Source: Glutamicibacter uratoxydans (GTDB taxonomy: Bacteria > Actinomycetota > Actinomycetes > Actinomycetales > Micrococcaceae). Taken from it: 64,000 nucleotides of DNA. Shown one piece after another: positions 247 to 41,655 of the stretch. Positions within the stretch are counted from its first letter, which is position 1; each line of letters opens with the position of its first letter. The stretch is from assembly GCF_006539925.1 (NCBI RefSeq), contig NZ_BJNY01000001.1, positions 62,001-126,000 on the forward strand, given 5' to 3'. The position numbers and the translations under genes were made by a program. The notes below the pieces were generated by a model, which was given only the letters and a program-made list of their open reading frames with translations, searched no databases and was not told the origin of the DNA.

Positions 247-747
247 TTACTGGTCATTCTGTATAGCTGTTGTTGATTCTTTGGCGCAGGCTGCCACCAG
301 GGGCAGCGTCCGGCCTTGGAAGTGCTCATGCAGCGCGAAGGCTGAGGACGTGCGGGCGACACCGGGAACCGTATTGATGCGGTTGAAGATGTCCTGGAGA
401 TCTTCCGGGGTGCGGGCCACCACGCGCAGCTGCAGATCCGAGCTGCCGGTGACCGTATACATGTCGATGATCTCCGGGATCGCCGCTTCCAACGCGTTGG
501 CCACCGGGTCGTGCCCGTATTTCTGCACGATCTCCACCGCGCAGAAGGCGACCAGCGTGTAGCCGAAGCCTGCCGGCTGGATGCGAGGGACGATTCCCTG
601 GATGACTCCCGCATCATGGAGCCTTGCCAGCCGACTGGTGACGGTTCCGCGGGCTACGCCCAGGCGGCGGGCGCACTCCATCACCGGCAGCATGGGGGAC
701 TCGGTCAGCAGATCAATCAGGTCTGCGTCCAATTGGTCGATGCGCAT
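247..747 (-). CDS. Lrp/AsnC family transcriptional regulator
   Basis: A 166-aa protein with an N-terminal winged helix-turn-helix (about residues 1-60; 'ECARRLGVARGTVTSRLARL' is the recognition region) and a C-terminal RAM/AsnC effector domain (about 65-145; 'VTGSSDLQLRVVARTPEDLQ' has the family's GxxDx(Q/L) turn). Such proteins form octamer-type assemblies and sense amino acids. The start codon at 747 gives the usual family length. It lies upstream of, and collinear with, the aminotransferase at 1-75, which is a plausible target; that link is inference. The ~170 bp between them shows no other gene. Confidence 0.9.
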   Translation of the reverse strand: MRIDQLDADLIDLLTESPMLPVMECARRLGVARGTVTSRLARLHDAGVIQGIVPRIQPAGFGYTLVAFCAVEIVQKYGHDPVANALEAAIPEIIDMYTVTGSSDLQLRVVARTPEDLQDIFNRINTVPGVARTSSAFALHEHFQGRTLPLVAACAKESTTAIQNDQ

Positions 748-1016
748 GGCCTTGCTCCTTAGCCTCTGCCGCTACTTGTTGCAGGACACACGCCATTGTG
801 CGCCCTGTCTCTAAGGCTAACTCGCGTTAAAGGCGGTGGTGGCCCATGTCATGGAGAAAGATGGGATAGCTCACAGCAAACTGGTCTCGGCGGAGCGCAG
901 ACAACAAGGATTTAACTGCGGCTGAAAAGTTGATGAAGCCTATTCCGCGCCGGGCAATGCTGACGTAGCGTAGTGCTCGGCAAGCCGTGCAGCATACACA
1001 TCAAGGGGATAAGGCC

Positions 1017-5728: not shown

Positions 5729-6031
5729 ATGTATTTAACTCCGCGTGAGCATGAAAAACTCATGATCGTTGTGGCCGCCGATCTAGCGCGCCGCCGCCAA
5801 GAACGTGGACTAAAGCTGAACTTTCCTGAATCGGTAGCCATCATCACCTACGAAATCATCGAAGGCGCCCGCGACGGACGAACCGTTGCCGAAATGATGA
5901 GCTACGGAACCACCATTCTCAAGCGCGAAGATGTCATGGACGGCATCCCGGAAATGATTGACCAGGTTCAGGTAGAAGCAACCTTCCGTGATGGCACGAA
6001 GCTCGTGACCATCCACAATCCGATCCGTTAA
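5729..6031 (+). CDS. ureA: Urease gamma subunit
   Basis: A 100-aa protein of normal family length with the conserved start '[13 protein letters not shown]', the '[20 protein letters not shown]' core and the end '[12 protein letters not shown]'. UreA is the smallest structural subunit of the cytoplasmic (alpha-beta-gamma)3 nickel enzyme that hydrolyses urea to ammonia and carbamate. It is the first gene of ureABCEFGD, with ureB 30 nt downstream. AAGGGGA precedes the ATG at good spacing. Confidence 0.98.
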
Positions 6032-6061
6032 AACGTCTGAATCAAGCACCCAGGAGACCCG

Positions 6062-6634
6062 ATGATTCCCGGTGAATACATCCTTCGCGATGAACCGATT
6101 CTGTGCAACGAACAACAGCAGACTCGCATCTTGAACCTCGTCAACCGCGGCGACCGCCCCATCCAGGTCGGTTCGCACTACCACTTCGCAGAAGTGAACA
6201 ACGACCTGGAGTTCGACCGCGTCGCCGCCCGCGGCTTCCGGCTGGACATTCCCGCCGGCACCGCCGTGCGCTTCGAGCCGGGCGATGCACGCACCGTGCA
6301 CCTGGTCGAATACGCCGGCTCCCGCGAGGTCTACGGCTTCCAGAACCGCGTCAACGGCCCGCTGGGCAAGCCGGTTCCCGTCGTGGAAACCGAAGCCATT
6401 GGCGGCACCGCAGGCATCGACTTGGACCGCGAACCAGAAGTCGTGCAGGACTACGACATCGACCTGCCCAACGAGGCGGAAGACGATTCGATCGGCTTCA
6501 GTACCAGCTTCGGCGTGGACCCGGTGGACGAGACGCTGCCGCCGCAGCCCCACGAGGCACGCCTGGCCGCAGAGGCAGAAGAAGCAGCCGAGGCGCAGGC
6601 CGACGGCGGCCAGAAGAATGAGCAGGAGCACTAA
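6062..6634 (+). CDS. ureB: Urease beta subunit with long acidic C-terminal extension
   Basis: Residues 1-105 are a normal UreB ('[13 protein letters not shown]', '[19 protein letters not shown]', '[12 protein letters not shown]', '[13 protein letters not shown]'). Family members usually end near residue 100-120, but this one runs to 190. The extra ~85 residues are acidic, rich in E/D/A/P and predicted disordered ('[19 protein letters not shown]', then an Ala/Glu tail). There is no frameshift: the frame is continuous and ureC starts 2 nt after its stop. UreB completes the structural enzyme with UreA and UreC; the role of the tail is unknown. Confidence 0.95.
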
Positions 6635-35022: not shown

Positions 35023-35045
35023 TCCGGTTGTCTAGATAGAGGCTT

Positions 35046-35081
35046 TGGCCCGGTTCTGCGAAATTTCGCAGAACCGGGCCA
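35046..35081 (+). terminator. Very strong terminator after nrdF
   Basis: A 36-nt perfect palindrome: a 15-bp stem TGGCCCGGTTCTGCG closing an AAATTT centre, then TTGTTTT. 23 nt after the nrdF stop. Confidence 0.88.
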
Positions 35082-35115
35082 TTGTTTTCATATGAGTGCG
35101 AGCCGCAGCAGTCTG

Positions 35116-35790
35116 CTAGGCATTCACGTTCGACAGAGGGCGCTTAGCCTCAGGGGCCGGAACAATCTCCCGCAGATCCTCAATTGGCAGATTGGCACCG
35201 AACGCAGGGGTTCCAGGCTGGAGGCTGGATCCAGCCGACAAATTTCCGATCACCAGCGGATCAAAACCTAAGGCATCGACAAAAGCGGAAACCTGGGCAA
35301 CGTCGTCCCTGCTGTCACCAGCAATGGCAATGGCTTTGCGCCCGGTAGTTCCTGCAGGACGTGCTTCATCTTCAAGGTCGTGATAGCCCATGTGGTTCAA
35401 TGCTTTGACGAGGCGTGGGTTGCCTATGAAGTCTTGCACTAGTTCACTGGTGGATGTTGGCGGGTCGCTTAGATCCTCGCGGAAGCCATCGGTTTCCCAC
35501 CAGTAGTTCATGGTGTCGATGACGAGCTTATCTTTCAAAAGTGCAGCGGGAATTGTCTGGTATTTGCCGAGGGGCAACGCGAGAATGACTAAATCTGCTT
35601 CTCGGGCTGCTTCGTCCGGGTGTACGGCAATGGCGCCCGGGGTGAGGATTTCAATGGTGAGCGCGATCTTTTCAGGGTCGCCTGAACCTGCAATAAGCAC
35701 ACGGAAGCCAGCTGAAACTGCCAGGCGAGCAAGTGCTGTACCGACTTTTCCTGCTCCCAAGATTCCAATGGTGCGGATGCTCTGGTTCAT
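35116..35790 (-). CDS. NADP-binding oxidoreductase of the F420-dependent NADP reductase family
   Basis: 224 aa. Rossmann motif '[28 protein letters not shown]' at residues 8-35 and the family feature '[12 protein letters not shown]'. '[13 protein letters not shown]' and '[19 protein letters not shown]' are found in 'NADPH-dependent F420 reductase' (NPD/Fno-like) proteins. Whether it really uses F420 is uncertain; many relatives use other substrates. Start ATG at 35790 with GAGAGCC upstream. Monocistronic, convergent with nrdF. Confidence 0.82.
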
Positions 35791-35979
35791 TTTTCGGCTC
35801 TCATTTCAATAGATACCCAGTTGACGCAGCCTCGTGGCTGAGCCTTCAGTGCTGGTCAGCAGTGCGGCTTTGCTCTATATTCCTGCTAGGAGCCACGCCG
35901 CACTAATTGACGTGTCATCTACTGCAACAACTTCAATGGGATTTCAATTCCCTGAGCGGTTTTCGGGAAAAGGGGAGTC

Positions 35980-36264
35980 GTGAGCAACGAGCAGAACATG
36001 CCAACGGGTGCGAATGAAAACAAGAGCAAAATTCGCGAATATGCGGCGTCGGAGGTCGTCATTACCTGGGAAGCTTCACGCTGTCAGCATGCTAAAGAAT
36101 GCGTCAATGGACTTCCTAGAGTCTTCAAGTTTGGAGAACGGCCGTGGATTGATCCGGCCGCCGCCTCTGTGGATGAAATTGTTGAGGTAATTGACCGATG
36201 CCCGAGTTTTGCCTTGGGCTACCGTACCGAAGACGGCCTGAATCGCGTCGCGCCAGCCGACTAG
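35980..36264 (+). CDS. Divergent 4Fe-4S mono-cluster (Fer4_19-like) protein
   Basis: 94 aa. The pattern 'RCQHAKECVNGLPRVFKFGERPWIDP...VIDRCPSFALGYR' is that of the small (4Fe-4S)-binding/'divergent mono-cluster' domain family: two Cys near residues 35-42, one at about 75, with Pro after it. Likely a small electron carrier or metal-binding protein. GTG start at 35980 after AAGGGGAGTC. The first ~18 residues are polar and poorly conserved. Stands alone; partner unknown. Confidence 0.8.
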   Translation: MSNEQNMPTGANENKSKIREYAASEVVITWEASRCQHAKECVNGLPRVFKFGERPWIDPAAASVDEIVEVIDRCPSFALGYRTEDGLNRVAPAD

Positions 36265-36343
36265 AGCTATGAGATAGAGGCGGCGCAATCTGCGCCTCTC
36301 TAAAAGTTATGCGGCCTCTCGGGACGGCTGTTAGACCTAAGCG

Positions 36344-36375
36344 GCCTGCCTGCTGCTTGTTTGCAACAGGCAGGC
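36344..36375 (-). terminator. Hairpin downstream of the convergent hypothetical gene
   Basis: A 9-bp stem GCCTGCCTG/CAGGCAGGC with a 14-nt loop, 61 nt beyond the stop of the minus-strand gene at 36436. A weaker AGAGGCG/CGCCTCT hairpin at 36276-36299 serves the plus-strand gene. No long T-runs. Confidence 0.45.
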
Positions 36376-36435
36376 TTGCATGACCCCAAACGCCGCGCCC
36401 AAGGTATGAGTTGCGACATTGGGCCAGCTGCAAGC

Positions 36436-36996
36436 CTAGAGGTTTTGAAGCCTGTCGAAACGGTAACCCAACTCTGAACTAATCTCTCCATTGAGTACTT
36501 GATCCACATCCTCGCGGCTCGGCGGAAGCGAGATGGAATCGTCGTTGGCAATGGCCCACAAGGAGGTGAAAAGCGTCGATTCACCAATTGCGTCCTTCAG
36601 CTCGCGGGCAACTTCTCTCGTGCGATCTAGTACAGCTTCATTGGCGGCACGCGAAGCGCTGGGAAACCCGTCACTGTCGTAGGGGTCGATGCCGTTGCGC
36701 TCGACATACCTGCCAAGTGCAAATTCAGACAGCTGGACTTTCGGCATCAAGATATCGCATGAAGCTTCGAAATCTGACAGGTCGTCGTCGTAGTCAAACC
36801 ATTCGGCAAGCGTTGACAGTGCAGCCATGGTGATGATGTGGTCGACGTAGTCGTCTTCGTCCGGGTCATACAGGTCTGTCGGAACCTTGCCTGCGGCTGC
36901 CAGAGCGAACCACGCGTATTCGCCCCACTTTTTGGACTGCCCGCTGAAAAGGTGGCTGATGAGTTCTTGGGTCTCGGGGTGCTCGCTTAATGTCAT
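36436..36996 (-). CDS. Acidic hypothetical protein
   Basis: 186 aa, not recognised. It is strongly acidic with Asp clusters ('DLYDPDEDDYVDHII', 'WFDYDDDLSDFEA') and no signal peptide or membrane segment. 'GEYAWFALAAAGKV' and the 'DRTREVARELKDAIGE' helix suggest a folded helical domain. ATG at 36996 has only a weak ribosome site. Divergent from the phosphotransferase operon, with the operon's palindrome in the shared 126-bp gap. Confidence 0.7.
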   Translation of the reverse strand: MTLSEHPETQELISHLFSGQSKKWGEYAWFALAAAGKVPTDLYDPDEDDYVDHIITMAALSTLAEWFDYDDDLSDFEASCDILMPKVQLSEFALGRYVERNGIDPYDSDGFPSASRAANEAVLDRTREVARELKDAIGESTLFTSLWAIANDDSISLPPSREDVDQVLNGEISSELGYRFDRLQNL

Positions 36997-37081
36997 GGCT
37001 CTTGTCTAGCAGTGGGCCCCGACACTTTGCTGATGCATCATCCTTGGGTGGATTCAAAATCCAGAAAATTTCCTTCGAGAA

Positions 37082-37116
37082 AATAGTGTACGAACCGTAC
37101 ACTATTGCGCTACTGT
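37082..37116 (+). promoter_or_regulatory. TetR-type operator and leaderless promoter of the phosphotransferase operon
   Basis: A perfect 11-3-11 palindrome: AATAGTGTACG (37082-37092), AAC, CGTACACTATT (37096-37106). A -10-like TACTGT follows at 37111-37116 and ends 6 nt before the ATG at 37123, with no Shine-Dalgarno site. The operator thus spans about -41 to -17 of a leaderless start. The natural ligand-binding repressor is the TetR protein encoded second in the operon. Confidence 0.78.
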
Positions 37117-37122
37117 GAACTT

Positions 37123-39522
37123 ATGATTCTTCCAGATGTGGTTGCACTTTCTTCTGCAGAGGCGGGCAGCCTCGCGGCAGTCGGCGGCAAAGCCTTCGGG
37201 CTGAACAAGCTCATCAAGCTTGGGGAGAACGTGCCCCAAGGGTTCGTTGTCACCACCCAGGCCTACAGATCTGCCCTGCAGCAGGGAGCGCATCGTGCAG
37301 TGGTGGGGGAAGAACTGGGCCGCGAATTGCGCGAAGCCTACCGAAAGTTGGAGAGCTCATTGGTCGCGGTGCGTTCCAGTGCGACGGCTGAAGACTTGCC
37401 AGGCGCTGCTTTTGCAGGGCAGCAGGAAACTTACCTCGGTATCTCCAGCGAAGATGAGCTGATCCAAGCCGTCGAAGATTGCTGGGCCTCCCTGTATAGT
37501 GAACGAGCTCAAAGCTACCGGCAGGAACGCCGCATTGACGAGGCTGATGTCTCCATTGCCGTAGTCGTCCAAACCATGGTGGACGCCGAGTTTGCAGGGG
37601 TGATGTTCACCGCTGACCCGATAGCCGGGTATCGGGACCGCTCAGTGGTTGAATCAAACCTTGGACTCGGCGAAGCTGTCGTCTCCGGCATGGTCACCAC
37701 CGATCGTGCGGTGATCGGTGAGGACGGGCGCATCATTGAGCGGCGTACAGGGCAGGCAGGTGCAGTAATTCGGCTGAAGTCCGATGGCGGGACCGTGACG
37801 GAGCAGGGGGACGGCACGCTGCAGCTGCCAGAATCCATGCTGTTGGAAATTGCGCGTGCCGGCAGGAGAATTCAAGACGGATTCGGCGTGCCTATGGACA
37901 TTGAATGGGCAGTGTGCGGGGAGCAGCTGTCAATACTGCAGGCCCGCCCCATGACTGCGCTGCCTCCAGCCCCGCGCAAGCTCAATGTATTGGAACGCAA
38001 AACTGCTCCGATGCTCTTTGAGCTGATGCCGCTACGCCCCACGATCCTGGAGGCCGAAGCATGGATCGATTCTGGCATCAATCCTCTGGTCCGCGGAATG
38101 CTTGCGGGAATCACCGGTGTCCAGGTGGACTATTCGGCATCATTGCAACGAGTCGACGGAGTGATCACCGAATTCATTCCGGCAAGCCCCCGCCCGAGCC
38201 TCCAAACTCCGGGCAGACTGCTGTCAACTTTGATCTGGAAGGCACCGGAAGGAACGTGGAATGAAGACCCGCTCTACAAGCAGTACCTTCAGCAATGCGC
38301 AGAGCTGGATAACGAAGACCTGCGACAGCTGCCCTTCGCCCGCTTGGTGAGCATTCCGGCTCGGGCCTGCGAAGCAATGCAGCTGGTGACGCAGCTGCGG
38401 GTCAAGTACCTGAGGCCAATGATTCCCGCTGCGGCTAAGATGCTGGCGGCTTTGGCCTTGAGTGGGCAGCTTTCGAAATTCTCCGCGCTGAGCATTACCA
38501 ATGACACCGTCACCCATCGAATCAATCGAGAACTGCAGTCAATAGCCTCGGCGTTCAACCTCGTCCCGGGTGCTGTTGATTTGATTGGGAATAGTTCAGG
38601 GCAACAAGCTCTCGAACTTCTGCATGCCACGGAGGGCATGGAAGAGCTCGCCCGACTAGTCGATGAATTTCTATCCGAATATGGCCACAGGGAAACTGCC
38701 AGCCTGCTGCTTCCCAAGGCGCCAACATGGCGGGCGGACCCGACCCCGGTCTTTGACGTCATCAAGCTTTTGGCGGCGGGCCATGCGCCCGGCGAGCAGG
38801 AAAACCACGTGCTGGAGCAGATCCTCGAATCTCCAGTGCTCCGGCTGCCATTCATTGCCCCGAGGGTGCGCCGCTGGGCGCAGTTGGTTCAGAAGTTCAC
38901 CTCTGTCAGGGAAGATACGCACTTCGAAATCACCCGCACCATGCCTGTGTTCCGTTCGGCAATCGTTGAAATCGGCCGAAGGCTGCATGAGGCCGGAGGG
39001 TTAGAAGATCCGGAAGACGTTTGGTTCCTGAACTACCGGCAGCTATTGGACGCCACAAGTCTTGAATCATTGAGCACAGCAGTGGTGGCAGCGACGGCCG
39101 CTGGACGCCGGCGGCGCAATCAGGAACTGGCTGCGGCTCCGATGATCTCTCCGGCCACGCTGTACGACCTTTCTCCGGTACCCGGCGCCTTGCTTCACGG
39201 AACCGGATCAGGCGGAGGCCAAGCGGTTGGCACAGTAAGAATCATCAACAGCCCGGCAGAATTCGACAAGCTTCTGCCAGGTGAAATTCTCGTGTGCCCG
39301 GCGACCAACCCTTCGTGGACGCCCCTGTTCGCCCGGGCCAGTGCAGTGGTGGTAGATCACGGGTCTGCTGCCTCGCACGCCGCCATCGTTGCCCGCGAGT
39401 ACCGCATTCCAGCGGTGATGGGCTGCGCGAACGCCACAACCACTTTGCGCGACGGACAGAAAATCCGCGTTGACGGCGACCGCGGCCTAGTCTTCGAGGC
39501 ATCCGATGCCAGCGACGCCTGA
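37123..39522 (+). CDS. Rifampin-phosphotransferase-like (PEP-synthase-related) enzyme
   Basis: 799 aa. Residues 1-310 are a PEP/pyruvate-binding ATP-grasp domain ('LAAVGGKAFGLNKLIKLGENVPQGFVVTT', 'VAVRSSATAEDLPGAAFAGQQETYLGI', 'AGVMFTADPIAGYRD', 'DIEWAVCGEQLSILQARPM'). Residues ~315-690 are a variable, mainly helical substrate domain. Residues ~690-799 are the swivelling His domain with catalytic His752 ('HGSAASHAAIVAREYRIPAVMG'). It ends 47 residues after that His, so the TIM-barrel of PEP synthase/PPDK is missing; this is the Rph architecture (ATP-dependent phosphorylation of rifamycins). Co-transcription with a TetR regulator and MFS exporter supports drug inactivation. True substrate unknown. 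Confidence 0.83.
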   Translation: MILPDVVALSSAEAGSLAAVGGKAFGLNKLIKLGENVPQGFVVTTQAYRSALQQGAHRAVVGEELGRELREAYRKLESSLVAVRSSATAEDLPGAAFAGQQETYLGISSEDELIQAVEDCWASLYSERAQSYRQERRIDEADVSIAVVVQTMVDAEFAGVMFTADPIAGYRDRSVVESNLGLGEAVVSGMVTTDRAVIGEDGRIIERRTGQAGAVIRLKSDGGTVTEQGDGTLQLPESMLLEIARAGRRIQDGFGVPMDIEWAVCGEQLSILQARPMTALPPAPRKLNVLERKTAPMLFELMPLRPTILEAEAWIDSGINPLVRGMLAGITGVQVDYSASLQRVDGVITEFIPASPRPSLQTPGRLLSTLIWKAPEGTWNEDPLYKQYLQQCAELDNEDLRQLPFARLVSIPARACEAMQLVTQLRVKYLRPMIPAAAKMLAALALSGQLSKFSALSITNDTVTHRINRELQSIASAFNLVPGAVDLIGNSSGQQALELLHATEGMEELARLVDEFLSEYGHRETASLLLPKAPTWRADPTPVFDVIKLLAAGHAPGEQENHVLEQILESPVLRLPFIAPRVRRWAQLVQKFTSVREDTHFEITRTMPVFRSAIVEIGRRLHEAGGLEDPEDVWFLNYRQLLDATSLESLSTAVVAATAAGRRRRNQELAAAPMISPATLYDLSPVPGALLHGTGSGGGQAVGTVRIINSPAEFDKLLPGEILVCPATNPSWTPLFARASAVVVDHGSAASHAAIVAREYRIPAVMGCANATTTLRDGQKIRVDGDRGLVFEASDASDA

Positions 39523-40102
39523 ACACAAGCCCGCCACCCGCCGACGAGGACAGGAACTTGTTGATGCTATTCTTCAAGCCGCCAGTGTCGAACTGCTGGA
39601 ATCCGGGTACACAGGATTGAGCGTTGAAGCTGTTGCCCGGCGTTCGGGCGCTTCCAAGGTATCGATCTACCGGCGGTGGCCTACCAAAGAAGACTTGGTT
39701 CGCGCCGCGGCAGCACAGAAAGCAGACATCCCTGAGCTGCCAGCCGAGCCTTCGTCATTGCGTGAAGATTTCTTGGTGATCTTCCAATCGATGGCGGCGC
39801 AGATTCACCAGCCGCCCGGACAGCTGGTCCGCAGCCTGCTGGCTGCCTCCCTGGCCCAGCAGGCACCCAGCATGGCTGAACTGTCGTGGGGGATGGGGTC
39901 AAACATGATGCAGGCTGTCGCCTCCCGGGCCGTATCCCGCGGAGAACTACAAGCCGCACCCGCACCGCTGGCCCTGCGTGCGCCGGTGGACCTTTTCAAG
40001 CAGCGGTTTATCAGCCATGGGCAGGTGGAGGACGAATTCATCAGGCAGCTGGTTGATCAAATTGCGGTGCCCTTGTGGACGGCTGCCACGAGGAAGGAAT
40101 GA
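39506..40102 (+). CDS. TetR family transcriptional regulator
   Basis: 198 aa. N-terminal HTH at about 15-60 ('ILQAASVELLESGYTGLSVEAVARRSGASKVSIYRRWPTKEDLV'), C-terminal ligand domain. It begins inside the last 17 bp of the phosphotransferase gene, so the two are translationally coupled and the regulator controls its own operon. The perfect palindrome at 37082-37106 is the likely site. Relatives respond to a drug by releasing DNA. Confidence 0.93.
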   Translation: MPATPEHKPATRRRGQELVDAILQAASVELLESGYTGLSVEAVARRSGASKVSIYRRWPTKEDLVRAAAAQKADIPELPAEPSSLREDFLVIFQSMAAQIHQPPGQLVRSLLAASLAQQAPSMAELSWGMGSNMMQAVASRAVSRGELQAAPAPLALRAPVDLFKQRFISHGQVEDEFIRQLVDQIAVPLWTAATRKE

Positions 40103-40186
40103 CACAGAGCATCCAGGAATCTGTTTAGTTGAAGTTCTGCAATAACCTTGGGCGTAGTAGTTTTGCCTCGAGGAAGCGAGCTTGTC

Positions 40187-41452
40187 ATGGCTGAAGTACC
40201 AGCAAGTCCCTATACCGATGAGCAGGTGCAGTCGTTTCGGCGGCGCTCCATTTCGGTGCTGGCACTGGGGCAGATTCTCGGAGGGCTCGGCGGTGGCGCG
40301 ACCCTGACGCTGGGTTCGCTGCTGATCGTCAAGCTGTCAGGACTTGATTCCCTGGCAGGCATGCCAGCGACCATGAATACGCTCGGCGCCGCGGCCATGG
40401 CCATTCCGCTGGCAATGCTTGCCCACAAATACGGGCGTAGGGTGTCCTTGTCGACCGGTGCGCTGATCGCGGCCCTTGGCTCGGCGGTCATCGTGACCGC
40501 GGCGGTCGTGGAATCTGTTCCCCTGCTCTTTGTGGGCATGCTCGTGCTCGGCACCGCCTCTGCCATGAACCTGCAATCGCGCTTTGCCGCCACCGACCTG
40601 TCAAGCGATGCCACCCGGGGCAGGGATCTTTCCCTCGTTGTTTGGACAACCACCATAGGTGCTGTGATTGGCCCTAATCTCTTTGCCCCTGGCGAAGTGA
40701 TTTCGCGGGCATTCGGCCTCCCTGAATACACCGGCGGGTTCCTGATCGCGATGACCGCTCAATGCGCAGGCATGATCATCTACTTCACTGGATTGCGTCC
40801 GGATCCAATGAAGGTTGCATTGGGGCGGTCGAAGCTTCCCGCACATAAGCCCAGGCGCGGCGGAGGGTTTAGGCTCTTGAAGGAAATCCCTGCAGCCCGC
40901 AGGGCGGTGATCACCGTGGCGTTGAGTCATGCATACATGGTGTCGCTGATGTCCATGACGCCGGTCCACATGCAGCATGGTGGTGCGACATTAACCTTGA
41001 TCGGCCTGACCATTTCGCTTCATGTTTTGGGCATGTATGCCTTGTCGCCGGTCTTTGGCTGGCTGACCGATAAATTCGGCGGCCGAATGGTTGTGCTGTC
41101 CGGCCAGGCTTTGCTGATCGCAGCGAGTATCAGTGTCTGGTCGAGCCCGGAAAGCCACGTAGTGGTGACTATCGCCCTGAGCCTCTTGGGCCTGGGCTGG
41201 TCTGCTTCTACCGTTGCCGGTTCCACGATGGTTTCTGGTGCGGTGCCAGTTCAAGAACGCACCAGCCTGCAGGGAGCCAGCGACCTTCTGATGAACTTGG
41301 CTGGAGCCGCAGGGGGACTGAGCGCTGGTCCCGTGCTGGCGGCCTTTGGCTTCCACGGGCTGGCGCTTGGACTGCTAATATTGGCAGCCATCGTAATCTA
41401 TGTAAACCGTTCTTCGCAGGCCAAGACACCCCTGGAACCGGCCTTGGGATAG
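40187..41452 (+). CDS. MFS transporter (probable drug exporter)
   Basis: 421 aa with about 12 hydrophobic segments. The loop 2-3 motif A reads 'MLAHKYGRRVSLSTGALI', and its second-half copy 'WLTDKFGGRMVVLSGQALL'. GAGGAAG precedes the ATG at 40187; the upstream start at 40148 lacks a site. It lies 84 bp after the TetR gene in the same orientation with no terminator between, so it is probably the third gene of the cassette. Confidence 0.88.
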   Translation: MAEVPASPYTDEQVQSFRRRSISVLALGQILGGLGGGATLTLGSLLIVKLSGLDSLAGMPATMNTLGAAAMAIPLAMLAHKYGRRVSLSTGALIAALGSAVIVTAAVVESVPLLFVGMLVLGTASAMNLQSRFAATDLSSDATRGRDLSLVVWTTTIGAVIGPNLFAPGEVISRAFGLPEYTGGFLIAMTAQCAGMIIYFTGLRPDPMKVALGRSKLPAHKPRRGGGFRLLKEIPAARRAVITVALSHAYMVSLMSMTPVHMQHGGATLTLIGLTISLHVLGMYALSPVFGWLTDKFGGRMVVLSGQALLIAASISVWSSPESHVVVTIALSLLGLGWSASTVAGSTMVSGAVPVQERTSLQGASDLLMNLAGAAGGLSAGPVLAAFGFHGLALGLLILAAIVIYVNRSSQAKTPLEPALG

Positions 41453-41612: not shown

Positions 41613-41655
41613 AATGGCGTGTTTCGCATCCACGATGGATGCGAAACACGCCATT
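41613..41655 (-). terminator. 20-bp stem terminator of cspA
   Basis: 41613-41632 pairs perfectly with 41636-41655 around a CGA loop (arm AATGGCGTGTTTCGCATCCA). It begins 8 nt after the cspA stop. The gap 41453-41612 before it shows nothing else. Confidence 0.8.

Follow-up and report, generated by a model that had tools for sequence, protein, structure and literature searches.

Introduction

What does a gene resembling those of rifampin phosphotransferases (RPH, here also Rph) do when it overlaps the gene of a TetR-family repressor and is followed by a gene for an exporter of the major facilitator superfamily (MFS)? The question is raised by a 64,000-nucleotide stretch of Glutamicibacter uratoxydans (contig NZ_BJNY01000001.1, positions 62,001 to 126,000; hereafter the window), for which a preliminary description made from the letters alone had read these three genes and a palindrome in front of them (Table 1) as one repressed drug-resistance cassette. 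Both small-molecule dikinases and TetR-controlled cassettes are already known as kinds, and drug-efflux operons of the tetR-tetA type combine a local repressor, a palindromic operator and an exporter.

Our best reading of the sequence comparisons is that the window enzyme is a member of an uncharacterised clade of small-molecule dikinases. On balance we favour the view that it forms part of a TetR-repressed inactivation cassette, in which the dikinase would act on a small molecule sensed by TetR, probably an antimicrobial natural product other than a rifamycin. A wider claim, that the clade is a family of antibiotic-inactivating dikinases not yet described, whose TetR senses a non-rifamycin natural product, which has an operator of its own and which has recruited exporters repeatedly, in one case within a shared reading frame, is one we put forward as possible and more tentatively. 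In the RPH study an antibiotic role is established only for the rifampin-specific clade of these dikinases, and what the remaining members act on is called unexplored (PMC4844700). Among the papers listed by our literature searches, none deals with such a cassette, clade or operator, judged by title and opening of the abstract.

Table 1. The cassette in window coordinates, with the domains of the enzyme in residue numbers.
Feature	Position	Strand	Basis or remark
Perfect 11-3-11 palindrome, proposed TetR operator	37082..37106	.	co-occurrence with TetR
Palindrome core	37084-37104	.	fit to TAGWGWAC-N5-GTWCWCTA
Rph-like small-molecule dikinase gene, 799 aa	37123..39522 (ATG 37123, stop ends 39522)	+	Pfam, NCBIfam, PDB alignment
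Enzyme, ATP-grasp domain	residues ~1-286
Enzyme, substrate (middle) domain	residues ~290-690
Enzyme, His-swivel domain	residues ~691-790		His752
TetR-family repressor gene, 198 aa	39506..40102	+	TetR_N + TetR_C_11 (Pfam)
MFS exporter gene, 421 aa	40187..41452 (ATG 40187)	+	MFS_1 (Pfam); facultative member

The repressor and its proposed operator

The layout given in the preliminary description was borne out: the enzyme and TetR genes overlap by 17 bp, the MFS gene follows 84 bp after the TetR stop codon, and a perfect palindrome, AATAGTGTACG-AAC-CGTACACTATT, ends 16 bp before the start codon of the enzyme. The further statement that the palindrome covers the promoter found no backing despite this closeness, as a sigma-70 scan gave no promoter match at the palindrome. 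Dinucleotide shuffling of the window, done 100 times, yielded no match to the palindrome with up to three mismatches. At the same tolerance the 9-3-9 core occurs once in the 3.79-Mb assembly, and so does the reversed control pattern.

The evidence that carries our reading comes from relatives of the enzyme. Among 37 loci of the taxonomic family, the window locus included, 13 have a TetR relative just 3' of the enzyme, and the palindromes of these 13 share the motif TAGWGWAC-N5-GTWCWCTA, which stands before the cassette in all of them with at most one mismatch and is found in none of the 24 loci without TetR even when three mismatches are allowed. By loci without TetR we mean those with no tblastn relative of the window TetR at E <= 1e-3 in the stretch examined, where other regulators may be present; the stretch of L054 reaches only about 0.2 kb 5' of the enzyme and that of L059 is 10 kb in total. 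The motif was derived from the family loci, and a further set serves as an independent test: there it precedes eight of eight cassettes with TetR (Nonomuraea and seven of family f24, at most two mismatches) and is missing from the single locus without. Overall the motif lies before the first cassette gene at 21 of 21 loci with TetR versus 0 of 25 without; these are related rows and so not 46 independent trials, the TetR-bearing loci of the own family spanning five genera.

As a control for chance, the letters of each locus in the 539-kb family set were shuffled once; no match to the motif resulted with two mismatches or fewer, and three matches with three. The real loci hold extra matches with three mismatches away from the cassette in L037, L039 and L073, and beside the operator in L113. 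Genome-wide, at most one mismatch being allowed, there is exactly one site in each of the 13 TetR-bearing family genomes, three of which contain the reversed control pattern. Where the MFS gene is the first of the cassette (order MFS-enzyme-TetR in L069, L087, L111, L113, L114 and L116), it is this gene that the motif precedes. Relative to the end of the enzyme gene, the TetR start, estimated from alignment in the relatives, lies within -17 to +50 bp at 19 of the 21 loci; the remaining two have it at +104 and +150. Enzyme and TetR are, by these estimates, a conserved pair with overlapping or closely spaced genes. A TetR gene linked in this way to a conserved palindrome in front of its operon is the pattern of a TetR-autoregulated cassette, and it strongly supports TetR and palindrome as one dedicated regulatory unit with the palindrome as proposed operator. 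Placing the presence of TetR on the enzyme tree needs four changes, which fits an early presence followed by losses but does not prove it.

The enzyme and its catalytic residues

Pfam finds PPDK_N and PEP-utilizers (the latter at residues 719-788; PEP, phosphoenolpyruvate) in the window enzyme and no further family, and from this it follows that the enzyme lacks the barrel of PEP synthases; a search for a PEP-binding domain elsewhere in the protein found none in Pfam. The three-domain architecture that had been likened to rifampin phosphotransferases, ATP-grasp, substrate domain and C-terminal swivel, is thereby supported. The NCBIfam models of RPH, PEP synthase and the prodigiosin ligases all match the enzyme, and all do so far below their cut-offs: RPH (NF041857) with 361.5 bits against a cut-off of 999, models named for PEP synthase with up to 397 bits (TIGR01418 with 329), and the prodigiosin and undecylprodigiosin ligase models PigC and RedH with 318.7 and 340.7 bits against 1300 and 1350, a likeness that amounts to homology of the conserved domains. 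Submitted alone, the middle domain gets no Pfam match even with E values as high as 10 allowed, and it comes near no NCBIfam cut-off, the best scores being 49 bits with a PEP-synthase-named model (cut-off 883), 42 with RedH and 37 with RPH.

These values bear on a reading as a metabolic enzyme of PEP-synthase type, which we regard as the least probable of all those considered. Its attraction lies in the scores of the PEP-synthase-named models and in a PEP-carboxykinase-like gene upstream of 15 relatives without TetR. The scores, however, stem from ATP-grasp and swivel domains common to both kinds of enzyme; the middle domain gives at most the 49 bits mentioned, and the profile search revealed no close metabolic match for it. 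PEP synthase and pyruvate phosphate dikinase share the ATP-grasp and phospho-His domains with the window enzyme, but the His domain is C-terminal here and not central, there is no PEP/pyruvate barrel, and presence of the gene is sporadic.

The top-scoring sequences of the PDB were 5hv1, 5fbs and 5hv2, all deposited as 'phosphoenolpyruvate synthase', of which 5fbs is RPH-Lm, the RPH of Listeria (PDB 5FBS/5FBT/5FBU), whose study names Lys22, Arg117, Thr136, Thr523, Arg666, Glu667, Lys670 and His825 (PMC4844700). On the ATP side Lys22 aligns with K23, Arg117 with R84 and Thr136 with T103 of the window enzyme; on the transfer side Thr523 aligns with T464, Arg666 with R596, Glu667 with E597, Lys670 with H600 and His825 with H752, the swivel histidine already named in the preliminary description. 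All 46 aligned relatives share R84, T464, R596, E597, H600 and H752; T103 is kept in 44 (serine in two) and K23 in 41, with gaps in five. Thus the set Arg666-Glu667-Lys670 is not complete, the position of the lysine being occupied by histidine in 46 of 46 proteins of the window-enzyme type. Since the ATP-side, Arg-Glu, Thr and swivel-His residues are kept, both half-reactions look intact, though the lysine of RPH is replaced throughout. With a C-terminal His swivel, no PEP barrel and K23, R84, T103 and H752 in place, the enzyme has the features of the small-molecule dikinases of the RPH superfamily.

Divergence from rifampin phosphotransferases

The middle domain had been called divergent, and in this respect the first description was right. 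When middle-domain profiles were compared with those of Rph by hhalign, only the C-terminal half aligned (194 columns, 98.5% probability, 21% identity), and the N-terminal half, which holds arm 1 and the block-1 residue Gln337, was not alignable. Within the clade itself, identity was computed by domain for 42 other window-enzyme-type rows plus three of the own genus; to the 42, the two halves of the substrate domain have median identities of 27% and 30%, the ATP-grasp domain 49% and the swivel domain 63%.

We built a quick tree of 75 rows (46 of window-enzyme type, 12 of the 17 Rph, 12 of a group that we call mid600 and five others), with SH-aLRT support only and to be read with long branches in mind. 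Ten of its 12 Rph exceed the NCBIfam cut-off, and the remaining two, L088 and L089, are annotated rph in their records. The 46 rows cluster together (SH-aLRT 100) and separately from the 12 Rph (100), and mid600, a clade from genomes of the own family, is sister to Rph (99). Median identity of the window enzyme to the 12 Rph is 30.3%, the best being 31.6%; identity to mid600 is 32.1%. With the Rph model the 12 mid600 loci (L074-L085) reach 582-615 bits; that model's cut-off of 999 is exceeded in none of the 295 family genomes. One mid600 member, L074, retains the Arg-Glu-x-x-Lys pattern.

A deeper alignment (A1) holds 33 of the 37 family loci, the own locus among them, with L045, L055, L058 and L064 left out. 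Whole-gene dN/dS lies between 0.15 and 0.39 in five pairs, in all of which the C-terminal half of the substrate domain exceeds both the ATP-grasp and swivel domains. The excess is minimal (0.132 vs 0.120) between the window and L037, a pair with dS above 2; the substrate-half value of 2.7 for L056 and L062, where dS is only 0.014, is left uninterpreted.

Could the protein be a true rifamycin phosphotransferase that has diverged? Domain order is the same, the Rph model matches over the conserved domains (361 bits), equivalents of Lys22, Arg117, Thr136, Thr523, Arg666, Glu667 and His825 are present, and half of the substrate domain can be aligned. We nevertheless hold this very unlikely, in view of a score short of the cut-off, the separate clade, the histidine at the place of Lys670 in every relative and the unalignable arm-1 half. 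The regulatory sites differ as well. The window-type operator is found at 0 of 17 Rph loci, and an RAE-like site, scanned for with what we take to be the RAE pattern at up to two mismatches, occurs at 11 of these 17 and at 0 of the 46 loci of window-enzyme type. Members of clade A, by the RPH study, have more than 42% identity to RPH-Lm (PMC4844700), a criterion that concerns RPH-Lm itself and for which our 12 Rph, at about 30%, are a proxy. By the sequence tests made, the window enzyme is not a rifampin phosphotransferase and stands outside the rifampin-specific family, in keeping with the earlier suggestion that the drug may be another.

The authors of the RPH study expect distant family members probably to keep phosphotransfer with a changed substrate, and a clade-N member gave no rifampin resistance (PMC4844700). 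A Glutamicibacter genome was described as having a 'rifampin phosphotransferase' family match and yet no resistance to 12 antibiotics including rifampicin (PMC8082909), a match that may or may not correspond to the window enzyme.

The exporter

Several observations weigh against the favoured reading, and most of them concern the exporter. Two do not: 25 of the 46 relatives have no TetR relative, so that the enzyme works there without this sensor, and an AlphaFold2 model from the window enzyme and five distant relatives reached a mean pLDDT of 50.9, with the substrate domain mostly below 50, and was not used. As to the exporter, a relative of the window MFS is present in every one of the genus's 18 genomes, that of the window among them, and a close one (at least 66% identity) in 11, compared with only four that have enzyme and TetR. 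Seven congeners lack enzyme and TetR but have the close MFS at about this position: in six it lies 0.17-1.4 kb after nrdF, and in L136, where nrdF is outside the stretch, it lies before the same downstream gene. The pair was therefore either inserted next to an MFS gene already resident there or once lay next to it and was lost. Beyond this, 10 of the 21 loci with TetR have no intact adjoining MFS gene, and an MFS gene is also found at two of the 25 loci without TetR (L055 and L059, of the same tree subgroup as L069). A looser hydropathy count, made on reading frames without regard to starts and in flanks of about 1.5 kb for most loci, found a membrane open reading frame (ORF) at five of the 12 mid600 loci and one of the 17 Rph loci; with membrane ORFs at these control loci too, adjacency of an exporter is weakened as proof.

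It is possible, and we say so with some hesitation, that the unit consists of enzyme and TetR alone and that the MFS of the own genus is a bystander with its own promoter, a reading compatible with our best one for enzyme and TetR. The seven congeners and the distribution over the genus speak for it. On the other side, the 84-bp gap between TetR and MFS contains no terminator-like site in a terminator scan, and the MFS proteins of the carriers occupy one side of a branch (99/98), even though a DnaE2+ThrRS tree of the 18 genomes, in which G005 stands away from the three remaining carriers, speaks against a single carrier clade (p-AU 0.041); it is as if the MFS had travelled with the enzyme-TetR pair. 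The NrdF tree alone, with nine of 11 genomes (NrdF lies outside the stretch in two), did not resolve the genus.

In the wider set, an intact MFS gene on the same strand adjoins the cassette at 11 of 21 loci with TetR, and at seven of 17 outside the own genus, where it is upstream in the six loci with MFS-first order and downstream in L117. At least three types of adjoining exporter lack mutual tblastn matches, and six are of one upstream type, for which OtrB, Tcr3 and EmrB were the best MFS models, below their cut-offs (scanned in L069, L087, L111 and L113). L118 has a decayed upstream MFS of 145 aa (5951-6385) beside remaining matches to operator, enzyme and TetR. In L113 (5631-9842, - strand) MFS and enzyme share one uninterrupted frame of 1403 codons with no stop before the enzyme, and AAGGAGG with an ATG at the junction also permits a separate enzyme start. 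Taken together, the comparisons leave the exporter as a facultative and looser member of the cassette. Of the single repressed cassette proposed at the outset, the TetR-operator unit is strongly supported, and the exporter has not proved a fixed part. With operons of the tetR-tetA type the cassette shares the local repressor, the palindrome (here a putative operator) and, in a subset of relatives, the exporter; it differs in that the conserved partner is a dikinase of inactivating type and the exporter is facultative.

Two minor observations belong to these loci. The class search shows one in-frame TAG in the enzyme match of the L118 genome, and a beta-lactamase-family gene (PF00144) adjoins the cassette in two f24 loci (L112 3647-5170, L113 10106-11395).

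Proposed mechanism and substrate

We infer the following course for repression, ligand release, substrate and MFS co-transcription. A TetR dimer bound to the palindrome, where the operon begins, would keep the enzyme and repressor genes from being transcribed; read-through from the operon may take in the MFS gene. A small toxic molecule would bind the TetR_C_11 domain and release TetR. The ATP-grasp domain of the enzyme would then move the beta-phosphate of ATP onto His752, with AMP and Pi released, and the swivel domain would carry the phosphate from His752 to the middle domain. There Arg596-Glu597, together with Thr464 and with His600 standing in for the RPH lysine, may transfer it to one of the molecule's hydroxyls. 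An exporter, where present, would remove the drug or its product. The two-step swivel mechanism itself is known for RPH, as that study describes (PMC4844700).

Since the scanned upstream exporters most resemble OtrB and Tcr3, the sensed product is perhaps an aromatic polyketide. Aromatics also figure in the main and most serious rival, according to which the enzyme would be a detoxifying or catabolic kinase for plant phenolics, flavonoids or hydroxyphenyl ketones, the aromatic itself inducing through TetR. HpeHI, CreHI and PpsAB, which belong to the same superfamily and use a swivel mechanism, phosphorylate aromatics (PMC12167813), and YvkC of Bacillus subtilis is named a flavonoid phosphate synthetase in a paper that cites another for it (PMC13099321). 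Those enzymes are, by description, set apart as two polypeptides of aromatic catabolism, while the window enzyme is a single chain of 799 aa; no family of aromatic catabolism was found among the selected adjoining genes scanned with Pfam; and the scanned upstream exporters are drug-efflux-like. We judge a kinase of this kind unlikely, if well worth keeping in mind.

For a TetR-sensed dikinase directed at an antimicrobial product, the practical interest lies in the clade having its own TetR and a defined putative operator, a direct route to the substrate by way of an operator-driven reporter, as the inducer of TetR is likely to be the substrate of the enzyme. A switchable pair, sometimes with a drug pump, suggests defence against a small molecule. 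Should the substrate turn out to be an antibiotic, a kinase class so far known for a single class of drugs would gain a second resistance specificity.

Distribution and neighbouring genes

Presence of the enzyme is sporadic. With the own genome counted, it occurs in four of the genus's 18 genomes, in 37 of 295 genomes at family level and in 10 of 394 at class level, only matches at E <= 1e-100 (family) and 1e-120 (class) being listed. Two genomes, G380 and G424, hold a true Rph and a window-type enzyme together. In two Bacillota relatives the Rph-like dikinase adjoins other exporters: in a member of Clostridiales Family XIII the gene is followed by two ABC exporter genes (L003, 672-7034), and in one of Lachnospiraceae a MATE (MatE) gene follows the enzyme after 10 bp (L002, 5989-9847). 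There are three proteobacterial relatives, and three neighbours scanned at two of these loci included no exporter. Viral contigs gave one partial relative.

The PEP-carboxykinase-like gene mentioned above encodes a cluster of proteins, mostly of 607-613 aa, upstream of the enzyme at 16 loci, 15 without TetR and one with (L043, L047, L048, L050, L052, L055, L057, L058, L061, L064, L065, L066, L067, L069, L070 and L072); at L067 it is several ORFs away. They appear to be GTP-dependent PEP carboxykinase-like, judged by reading one member (L064) without profile confirmation. Upstream neighbours of loci other than the window were taken from a gene caller, used for this purpose only, that had been trained mostly on loci of high G+C content; it missed genes of the own genus and called no enzyme in L037-L039, L051, L063 and L073.

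Some further features of the surroundings may be recorded. A 16-bp perfect inverted repeat with a five-base loop lies 3' of the MFS gene (41616-41652), terminator-like when read by eye and absent from the list of the terminator scan. Upstream, about 2 kb with three ORFs of 224, 94 and 186 aa (35023-37081) separate nrdF from the cassette in the window, and in L037 the matches to nrdF and the enzyme are only about 0.2 kb apart.

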